From Flavobacteriia bacterium (GTDB lineage: Bacteria > Bacteroidota > Bacteroidia > Flavobacteriales_D > Crocinitomicaceae), in NCBI GenBank assembly GCA_947450325.1, contig CANFUT010000003.1, positions 62,001 to 126,000 of the forward strand: a DNA stretch of 64,000 nt. The letters run 5' to 3'. The notes beneath the pieces were generated by a model. It did not search any database. It saw only the letters and a program-made list of their open reading frames with translations, and was not told where the DNA came from. Shown here piece by piece: positions 23,201-24,939 of the stretch (position 1 is the first letter of the stretch; each line of letters begins with the position of its first letter). Position numbers and translations under genes: made by a program.

Positions 23201-24939
23201 TCAATATTCAATATCTAAATTGAACGTTTTTTGCAATGTTAATAGGTTTGTGTTTTTTCTAGCCAAAATTTCAAATTTATCTCTGCCTGTTAGGTGTTTG
23301 TTATTTTCTTCTTGATTTTCAATAATTGAAAAATCAATAGTGATGGACCAATTTTGCAATTTATTTCGAAGAAAATCTAGAAGTGAGGCATAAAAATGAT
23401 TTTTCATCATATCGATTTGAATTTGATTATCAAATTCTTGGTGAATATGATTTATGGCAGGTAATTTTGGATCTCGTTTGGTTAGCGCCAAATTCATTGA
23501 ATCTGCTCCCTCAATGCCATCTTGCTTAATTTTGTAAGCATATTGCCTCCAAACCATTTTGAGTTCATCTAAGGAAAATGGCTTTTGCGGTCTATTTGAA
23601 ATATCTTCCGAATTATTTAAGTCTTCGTCATTAGAATTGTCCTTTAAACTTTGTTTAATCGACAAATTATTGGTGTTAAGAACTCCTGTTGGAGTTGAAA
23701 AAGATTTGACTTCTTTTTTGAGAGAAATTGGTCGTTCCTGAGGTTCAGAAGGTTTGGTTTTACCAGGATTTACTGAAGGTCGCAGTGTTTGCCCCGAAAA
23801 TGGAATAATTTCTACTGGATCAGTTAATCTTTTTTTTTTTCAAGCTCATTCTTAATCGAACAAAGCTGCATCAATGCGAGTTCAACTAATAATCGTTGAT
23901 TTTTTGAAGCTTTATATTCGATATCTGTTTTACTTAAAATACCCAAGCATCTCAAAATATATGCAGATTCAAAAATTTTCGATTGTTCAATAAACCTATT
24001 TTCAACGCTTTCACCTACTTCTAACAATTTTGCGGTTCTAACATCTTTACAAACAAGTAAGTTTCTGTAATGATCAGCTAAACCTACAATAAAGTTGTGA
24101 CCATCAAAACCTTTTTCTTGTATATCATTAAAAAGAAGTAAACATCCAGGAATGTCCTCTTTCCAAGAGTTTTCTACAATTCTAAAGAAATAATCGTAGT
24201 CAAGAATGTTTAAATTCTCTAAAACAGCATTTAAGGATAATTTATTTCCTGCAAAACTTACAATTTGGTCGAAAATTGAAAGCGCATCTCTCAAAGCACC
24301 ATCAGCTTTTTGTCCTATCAAATGTAATGCTTCACTATCAGCATCAATGCCTTCTTTTTCGGCAATAGATGCTAAATGAATTGCTATATCTTTAACCTTT
24401 ATTCTATTGAAATCAAAAATTTGACATCTAGATAAAATAGTTGGAATGATTTTGTGTTTTTCAGTTGTTGCTAAAATGAAAATAGCATGAGCAGGTGGCT
24501 CCTCTAAAGTTTTCAAAAATGCATTGAAAGCAGCATTTGAAAGCATGTGTACCTCATCAATTATATAAACCTTATGGGTTCCAAGTTGGGGTGCAATTCT
24601 TACTTGATCAATTAAATTTCTTATATCTTCAACCGAGTTGTTTGAGGCTGCATCTAGTTCGTATACATTTAATGAAGCTCCTTCATTGAAAGATTTACAA
24701 GATTCACATTCATCACATGCTTCGATATTTTCTCTTGGATTAAAGCAATTAATTGTTTTTGCTAAAATACGAGCTGTAGTTGTCTTTCCTACACCTCTTG
24801 AACCACAAAACAGAAATGCTTGAGCAAGTTGATGACTTTTAATCGCGTTTTTTAAAGTTGAGGTAATAGATTTTTGCCCAACAACTGTATCAAAAGTTTG
24901 TGGTCTATATTTTCTTGCTGAAACTATGTAATCCTCCAT
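23201..24939 (-). CDS. dnaX: DNA polymerase III tau subunit (frameshifted product of dnaX)
   Basis: The full-length tau product needs a -1 shift (or one extra transcribed A) at the 11-A run 23830-23840. The -1 frame is then open without a stop from the run to 23201 and gives a protein of about 579 residues. The added part has a Pro/Lys-rich linker starting RLTDPVEIIPFSGQ and a C-terminal domain (PFSLDELKMVWRQYAYKIK, then FYASLLDFLRNKLQNWSI) of the kind found at the end of Bacteroidota DnaX. In E. coli the corresponding tau part binds the polymerase core and the replicative helicase. A separate start in this frame exists only as TTG 23665, inside the linker, so an independent gene is unlikely. 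Confidence 0.85.
23824..23840 (-). promoter_or_regulatory. Slippery A11 run and gamma stop codon in dnaX
   Basis: On the coding strand GAA is followed by nine more A, then GAT TAA; 11 consecutive A in all (23830-23840). Zero frame reads E-K-K-K-D-stop; the -1 frame reads K-K-K-R-L-T-D-P and stays open. Length and position fit transcriptional slippage (as known for Thermus dnaX) or ribosomal -1 slippage (as in E. coli dnaX). A homopolymer sequencing error is the main alternative. Confidence 0.8.
23824..24939 (-). CDS. dnaX: DNA polymerase III gamma subunit (zero-frame product of dnaX)
   Basis: 371 residues; clamp-loader ATPase. Walker A GSRGVGKTT, zinc module (C-x-N-P...CDECESC), Walker B VYIIDEVHML, the SRC sensor region (TILSRCQIF) and domain III to the end. 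The frame stops at TAA 23824-23826, three bases after the 11-A run, so this product ends right after domain III, the same architecture as E. coli gamma. Start: ATG 24939 (MEDYIVSARKYRPQTF). The reading from GTG 24948 is rejected because that codon starts in the last base of the -7 box. Confidence 0.93.
   Translation of the reverse strand: MEDYIVSARKYRPQTFDTVVGQKSITSTLKNAIKSHQLAQAFLFCGSRGVGKTTTARILAKTINCFNPRENIEACDECESCKSFNEGASLNVYELDAASNNSVEDIRNLIDQVRIAPQLGTHKVYIIDEVHMLSNAAFNAFLKTLEEPPAHAIFILATTEKHKIIPTILSRCQIFDFNRIKVKDIAIHLASIAEKEGIDADSEALHLIGQKADGALRDALSIFDQIVSFAGNKLSLNAVLENLNILDYDYFFRIVENSWKEDIPGCLLLFNDIQEKGFDGHNFIVGLADHYRNLLVCKDVRTAKLLEVGESVENRFIEQSKIFESAYILRCLGILSKTDIEYKASKNQRLLVELALMQLCSIKNELEKKKD

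Follow-up and report, generated by a model that had tools for sequence, protein, structure and literature searches.

The window, by which we mean the whole stretch of 64,000 nucleotides that was analysed, carries on its minus strand a dnaX gene (24939-23201) whose zero frame closes shortly behind a long run of A's, while the coding capacity for a tau-type domain continues in another frame. The question that this locus raises is whether one gene thereby provides both gamma and tau and, if so, whether it is the ribosome or RNA polymerase that changes frame. The run, the frames, the stops and a hairpin upstream of the run, as well as the conservation of all of these, can be read directly from the DNA of the window and its relatives. 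We infer from them that slippage occurs, that it takes place during transcription and that the hairpin stimulates it; it is thus probable, in our estimation, that a single dnaX gene generates gamma and tau through hairpin-stimulated slippage of RNA polymerase at the A run.

One gene in two reading frames

The zero-frame open reading frame (23824..24939, minus strand; ATG at 24939, TAA at 23826-23824) encodes a protein of 371 aa that spans the Pfam families DNA_pol3_delta2, DNAX_ATPase_lid and DNA_pol3_gamma3 (domain III, residues 235-362). Comprising the AAA+ domains and domain III, it matches gamma/tau chains of the PDB with a best E of 5.4e-66. An earlier note on this DNA had placed an A11 run at 23830-23840, with a zero-frame stop three bases further on and a product ending after domain III, and this description is accurate: the coding strand (minus) reads GAA AAA AAA AAA GAT TAA, with the heptamer A_AAA_AAA in phase within the A11 run (23830..23840). 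The TAA (23824..23826) is formed from the tau-frame Leu-Thr codons TTA ACT, and a TGA at 23820..23822 closes the third (+1) frame just past the run, leaving the tau frame as the only open one. Entered from the run, this -1 frame continues without interruption from A11 to a TGA at 23203-23201, and encodes the tau-specific tail (23201..23829), a linker followed by a folded C-terminal domain. The note had likewise described an open -1 frame that reaches 23201 and lacks a good start of its own, and this is confirmed as well: NCBIfam PRK14971, which represents full-length gamma/tau over 614 positions, matches the gamma part at profile positions 1-364 and, in a separate match, the tail at positions 435-613 (E 2.6e-20), both pieces being in order, and the first ATG/GTG/TTG of the tail lies about 55 codons past the run, the first ATG about 91 codons past it. 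The zero-frame product here is gamma, and tau is the product that requires a change of frame. A second dnaX was not found in the assembly, where the next matches have E values of 5.5e-10 or worse.

In a structural model of the tail, built from an alignment of 34 tails, residues 81-170 form a confidently predicted domain (block pLDDT 89-95); Foldseek returned no match for the tail at E 0.001 or better. The best match by VIA-align was 4tps_B, from a SirA complex with DnaA domain I (81 residues aligned at rmsd 2.3, Z 9.7); three chains reached Z 8 or more, and neither a solved tau tail nor E. coli tau domain V was among the matches listed, an absence that speaks against neither. DciA entries scored Z 7.1 and 7.6, a range that possibly means just a common arrangement. 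4tps_B, DciA and E. coli tau domain V presumably share a KH-like fold.

In the window's family (GTDB code f1), 91 of the 193 loci found were fetched, namely the best 30 and 60 hand-picked among the matches listed, plus L174. The earlier note had proposed that close relatives be checked for the run and the frame break, and both recur: the tail lies in the -1 frame in 89 of the 91 loci, behind A10 in 75, A11 in 13 and A13 in one, while A10, A11 or A13 is present in all 91. Because the break is common to 89 of the 91 fetched loci, it can hardly be a sequencing error. The idea of an error in sequencing or assembly, or of a decayed gene that makes gamma only, draws on the proneness of homopolymers to error, on the two exceptions (L119 and L172, with A11 in a context that reads straight through, off by one A) and on the fact that several frame flips elsewhere are single tips of the tree, but it is extremely improbable, given not only the shared break but also the behaviour of the tail and of its first codons. 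Among twelve close pairs picked by hand, tail dN/dS lies between 0.01 and 0.11 in 11 (for the remaining pair it was not computable, and several dS values exceed 1), and judged by these values the tau tail is under purifying selection and evolves as a protein. Moreover, the tau-frame Leu-Thr pair makes the gamma stop. Leu occupies this place in 84 of the 89 loci, and every one of these encodes it by TTA, CTG or CTA; TTG, CTT and CTC together account for 48% of Leu codons in the gamma parts of the same loci. At this conserved Leu (23825-23827 in the window), TTG, though it would also give the gamma stop, is used in 0 of 84 loci, and is perhaps avoided there as a start codon.

Formally, the locus consists of two open reading frames, and a TTG start is present in the window, so that the tail could be imagined as a protein in its own right, arising from internal initiation or from re-initiation past the gamma stop. 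This is very improbable in view of the position of potential starts, since the first ATG/GTG/TTG of the family tails lies a median of 43 codons past the run, and within 10 codons in only 3 of 89, whereas the conserved tail residues LTD.V.IIPF begin at the run itself, ahead of the start codons (89 family loci). It also disagrees with the situation in other families, where the tail lies in frame with gamma: a tau-tail query (P0002, tblastn) matched 37 of the 97 loci tried whose zero frame encodes tau, 37/37 in frame 0 with gamma. 

Some single records deserve mention in their own right. The dnaX of L171 (G007) has an in-frame TAA at codon 260, either an error or real, with the run and the tail intact behind it, and the tau-frame tail of L030 (G164) stops early, 71 codons past the run, unlike the other aligned tails. 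MAG records titled Chryseobacterium gleum (L034) and Chitinophaga pinensis (L038) carry dnaX of the window's family, and these titles look wrong; the L034 gamma part is identical to that of L014.

The A run and the closed frames in Bacteroidota

The wider comparison covers 279 dnaX loci in all, a non-random sample weighted to close relatives, in which the phylum loci are 109 of 389 matches (29 + 80 hand-picked) and the GTDB loci are 80 kept of at least 594 stretches. The frame of the tail was taken as the longest open frame behind the run; L030, L067, L103 and L171 (tail below 300 nt or internal stop) were dropped from the frame counts, as were L079, L087, L095 and L098 among the run-less loci. 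Three pairs of loci with identical gamma parts (L014/L034, L015/L035 and L036/L119) were counted twice in run and frame counts, but not in the tree.

A run of A9-A13 lies behind domain III in 243 of the 279 loci, a run of A7-8 in four, and none in 32. A10 is its commonest length in all three codon phases (140/168, 32/41 and 17/30 loci). The run is kept even in Hymenobacter dnaX of 60-62% GC, in one of which AAA makes up 8% of 13 Lys codons. Run-less dnaX genes include those of Bacteroidaceae and 13 of the 15 sampled loci outside the class. No run of A7 or longer is present in L070, L080, L091, L101, L107, L177, L191, L198, L202 and L246 (Bacteroidaceae, f11 and other Bacteroidota), which may have lost gamma or may produce it in another way.

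The genomic frame, on the other hand, varies. In the family set of 95 loci, the zero-frame product is gamma in 92 and tau in three, two of which have the same sequence; the 144 other run loci comprise 97 with tau in the zero frame, 45 with gamma in the zero frame and the tail at -1, and two, L113 and L239, with gamma in the zero frame and the tail in the +1 frame, out of reach for a -1 ribosomal shift. A FastTree phylogeny of 263 gamma-part proteins requires no fewer than 18 changes of genomic frame; several of these changes are single tips, which may be errors. Groups of more than one member with gamma in the zero frame are the window's family, genus g30 of f6 (16/16 in its clade), and f5 and f8 (8 loci each). 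The recurrence of the run in other families with a changing genomic frame, like the upstream hairpin treated below, goes beyond what the earlier note had seen.

These counts bear on the main rival explanation, according to which tau is made by -1 ribosomal frameshifting on the A run, as in E. coli with the roles of the two products reversed. The in-phase A_AAA_AAA would suit such a shift, as would the location of the tail at -1 in 92/95 loci of the family set and in 45/47 other loci with gamma in the zero frame, -1 far outnumbering +1; furthermore, Atkins et al. 2016, in the portion of that text available, treat the reversed arrangement as ribosomal and name Chlorobium phaeobacteroides as a candidate whose stimulators resemble those of E. 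coli. We nevertheless hold ribosomal frameshifting to be unlikely. Besides the two +1 loci, the run is mostly A10 whatever its codon phase, and stops close the third frame as well: in 227 of 239 run loci, neither non-tau frame stays open for more than 30 nt, as compared to 1320 of 4081 control positions inside tails (32%) and 6 of 28 run-less loci. A polymerase that adds or drops variable numbers of A's needs both non-tau frames closed, whereas a ribosome that shifts by -1 needs one stop only.

An RNA stem-loop upstream of the run

Immediately upstream of the run, the RNA of the window can form a stem-loop (23843..23867, minus strand) with an MFE of -6.5 kcal/mol. By itself this hairpin is modest (z -1.4 against dinucleotide shuffles, 17 of 200 shuffles being as good), so that the case for it rests on comparison between loci. 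For this purpose, 89 family loci and 141 others, which differ from one another in the 36 nt preceding the run and have sufficient flank, were folded in 27-nt windows. In both sets, the 27 nt before the run have the strongest mean fold of 129 windows (family, -5.49 kcal/mol, z -5.0; others, -5.91 kcal/mol, z -9.7), and another, shallower dip occurs some 60 nt upstream of the run (-4.24 and -3.45, respectively). Taken one locus at a time, the signal is noisier, and these 27 nt hold the first rank in 16/89 and 31/141, with median ranks of 6 and 13 of 129. On the downstream side, no fold of comparable strength was detected in 27-nt windows up to 195 nt past the run in either set, and the 60 nt downstream of the run in the dnaX of our window have a z of -0.97, in keeping with the remark in the earlier note that no strong downstream hairpin was obvious. 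A downstream stimulator was accordingly discarded as a candidate, and the missing peak is a further point against ribosomal frameshifting.

One could argue that the length of the run alone drives transcription slippage, and that the stem-loop is a by-product of coding and codon bias with no role of its own. A9 alone slips in E. coli and Thermus dnaX, as far as the available portions of the sources go, and among 235 run loci, 32 lack a fold of -3 or lower, the other 203 having an MFE in that range. We consider this reading distinctly unlikely, because the fold is not reproduced by synonymous-codon shuffles (family, -5.59 observed as compared to -2.56; others, -6.08 as compared to -4.02), against which 30/89 family loci and 40/141 others reach p 0.05 singly. 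Control windows 60-120 nt upstream had little effect (z -0.17 to 0.06), the control at 30 nt upstream not being fully null (z -0.43 and -0.20). Nor is the fold found before other A5-A8 runs of the same loci, where its mean is -1.70 and -1.95. The stem also recurs in several families, formed by unrelated sequences, for instance in Rufibacter (L047) and Marinifilum (L050), at short spacing: in 169 of the 203 folding loci, 0-3 nt separate its 3' end from the run. A mean fold excess at the run was absent in Saprospiraceae (2 loci), f7 (3 loci) and unnamed Bacteroidales (7 loci), and in single loci of Prolixibacteraceae, Odoribacteraceae and f20.

Covariation provides additional, if uneven, indications. 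Unaided, RNAalifold found in 88 family loci a 5-bp stem with an 8-nt loop that ends three bases before the run (in the window, 23861-23857 paired with 23848-23844, minus strand). In this consensus stem 94.2% of cells pair, as compared to 48% or less in slid controls, and cells changed on both sides number 37 against 16.0 in shuffles, none of 500 shuffles being as high. Two other measures do not rise above shuffles, namely both-side-changed pairs (1 against 1.0) and pair types (8 against 7.6; 281 of 500 shuffles), for which reason the covariation rests on one pair. The two partners are the third positions of a Ser codon and of the codon preceding Glu, both of them mostly synonymous, and the pair is formed in 69 of 88 loci where 36.4 would be expected, a result that the notion of a roleless by-product does not account for. 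The outer pair (-20,-5) shows no excess (86/88 paired, 86.2 in shuffles). After correction for the tree the direction is the same, but no median p reaches 0.05: among starred pairs, C/G follows this direction in 5.5 of 7 (the opposite one in 0.1), T/A in 4.1 of 9 (0.2), A/T in 2.8 of 9 (1.0) and G/T in 2.7 of 8 (0.8). It is some of these measures, those not above shuffles, that speak for run length alone. In loci of the Sphingobacteriaceae type (f3, 17 loci), three of four pairs covary (12, 13 and 16 of 17 paired, with 8.4, 5.9 and 7.5 expected), the fourth being below its shuffles (9 against 10.4); in Flavobacteriaceae (f6, 42 loci), paired cells number 261 of 336, as compared to 94/294 to 161/336 in slid versions, but to 142/210 at +3.

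A GAG upstream of the run is present in 81 of 88 family loci, and of the seven with GAA, five have U and two have C at the opposite position. As a candidate Shine-Dalgarno-like stimulator this GAG is ambiguous, since pairing within the stem, whose 3' arm it would form, accounts for it too.

Within the 3.44-Mb assembly, 39 runs of A/T10 or longer are present, few of them in sense inside open reading frames, and the dnaX run is first of the 39 for the strength of the preceding fold. The possibility of a chance A run was rejected, since apart from dnaX only the runs of L285 and L310 lie well inside a sense open reading frame of at least 80 aa, and since the break is conserved in the family. The run of L304 lies 23 nt into its open reading frame, and those of L288, L290 and L297 lie at the very start of theirs. 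The two sense A10 runs are found at about 1470 in L285, in a gene that is presumably queA (named from its translation), and at about 1456 in L310, in an open reading frame of 282 aa; the fold before the former is weak (-1.7), and the latter is not among the ten strongest listed.

Proposed mechanism and comparison with known systems

The earlier note had read this locus as making gamma and tau by slippage, more likely transcriptional, and this is still the reading best supported by the comparisons described above. RNA polymerase would slip on the A11 run. Gamma would come from transcripts that keep 11 A's or carry some other number leaving the tau frame unrestored, on which translation would stop within a few codons, while transcripts with a net gain of one A (or loss of two) would continue through the -1 frame and yield tau. 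The stem-loop would form in the nascent RNA a few bases behind the run, at about the position that a terminator hairpin occupies relative to its U tract, and would probably loosen the RNA-DNA hybrid and thereby increase slippage. Hairpin, a run of about A10 and stops that close both non-tau frames recur in many Bacteroidota, and the unslipped product, be it gamma or tau, is easily swapped by single-A insertions or deletions. On balance, we are somewhat inclined to believe that a large part of the Bacteroidota makes gamma and tau through a dedicated transcription-slippage element of this kind, composed of hairpin and A10 with both other frames closed.

Several observations from the literature favour transcription, each as far as the available part of its source goes. 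The RNA-DNA hybrid within the polymerase measures 9-10 bp (PMC5009743), a length that A10 approximates. Bacteroidia ribosomes do not recognise Shine-Dalgarno sequences (PMC9976891), so that an upstream stimulator of the E. coli type would be unavailable, and a hairpin located upstream attenuates -1 ribosomal frameshifting, also in a 70S system (PMC6321510). The hybrid-length run, a stem layout like that of insertion sequences (see below), the lack of Shine-Dalgarno recognition and the attenuating effect of upstream hairpins thus together favour slippage of the polymerase over a shift of the ribosome.

The apparent frameshift error in this dnaX is more likely a conserved expression or control element of the replication machine, and gene callers that follow one frame record only gamma for such genes, omitting tau. 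If the proposal is true, this would be the first widespread example of a stem-loop that drives the polymerase to slip in a cellular gene for replication; the element would replace the E. coli ribosomal signal in organisms whose ribosomes make no use of Shine-Dalgarno sequences, and the genomic frame could move between gamma and tau almost without constraint. In the literature searched, as far as its texts were available, polymerase slippage with a nascent hairpin is otherwise described for IS elements only. A text search, for which subscription full texts were mostly beyond reach, found no description of an upstream stem-loop at dnaX, and neither its recurrence across families, nor the closure of both frames as a rule, nor the repeated frame changes on the tree were found in the literature searched.

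A two-ORF dnaX that depends on recoding for tau is already published. Antonov et al. 2013 (PMC3711429, available text) described this type in 17 genes from 12 genera, 12 of the 17 having poly-A at the -1 frame change, nine with 10 A's, and proposed a transcriptional mechanism for the 10-A genes. The window's dnaX, with a frame-0 gamma stop just past poly-A and its tail at -1, belongs to this type; relative to that set, with which ours may share species, the present analysis covers the family and further groups, and adds the upstream stem-loop, the closure of the third frame and frame changes counted on a tree. The reversal of gamma and tau, which a single nucleotide can cause, was noted by Atkins et al. 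2016 (available text).

Among individually known systems, Thermus and E. coli provide the two dnaX precedents. Slippage in Thermus dnaX was reportedly first described by Larsen in 2000. In Thermus thermophilus, one gene gives both gamma and tau through transcriptional slippage on A9, with stops in both non-tau frames (PMC1088944 and PMC5009743, available text), and the window resembles this gene in having a poly-A run of at least nine (here A11) with stops close behind in both non-tau frames, but differs from it in its genomic frame, which is that of tau in Thermus and that of gamma here. E. coli dnaX relies on a -1 ribosomal frameshift at A_AAA_AAG, with an upstream Shine-Dalgarno-like element and a downstream hairpin (PMC5009743 and PMC3711429, available text); the gene, its two products, an A-rich slip site and a heptamer in phase are common to both, whereas the loci studied here have no downstream peak, a stem-loop on the upstream side and a longer run. 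A similar layout is described for insertion sequences: in Roseiflexus IS630, a stem-loop lies 5' of the slippage motif T5C5 (Penno 2015, via the available text of PMC5009743), and in IS1447, where A9 comes after a predicted stem-loop, slippage amounts to about 16% in either direction, a role for the stem having been proposed (PMC6211511, available text). As in these two elements, an RNA stem-loop, known here from sequence comparison, is 5'-adjacent to the slippage run; unlike their transposase genes, dnaX is a cellular replication gene, with runs of A10-A11 and a distribution over many families.
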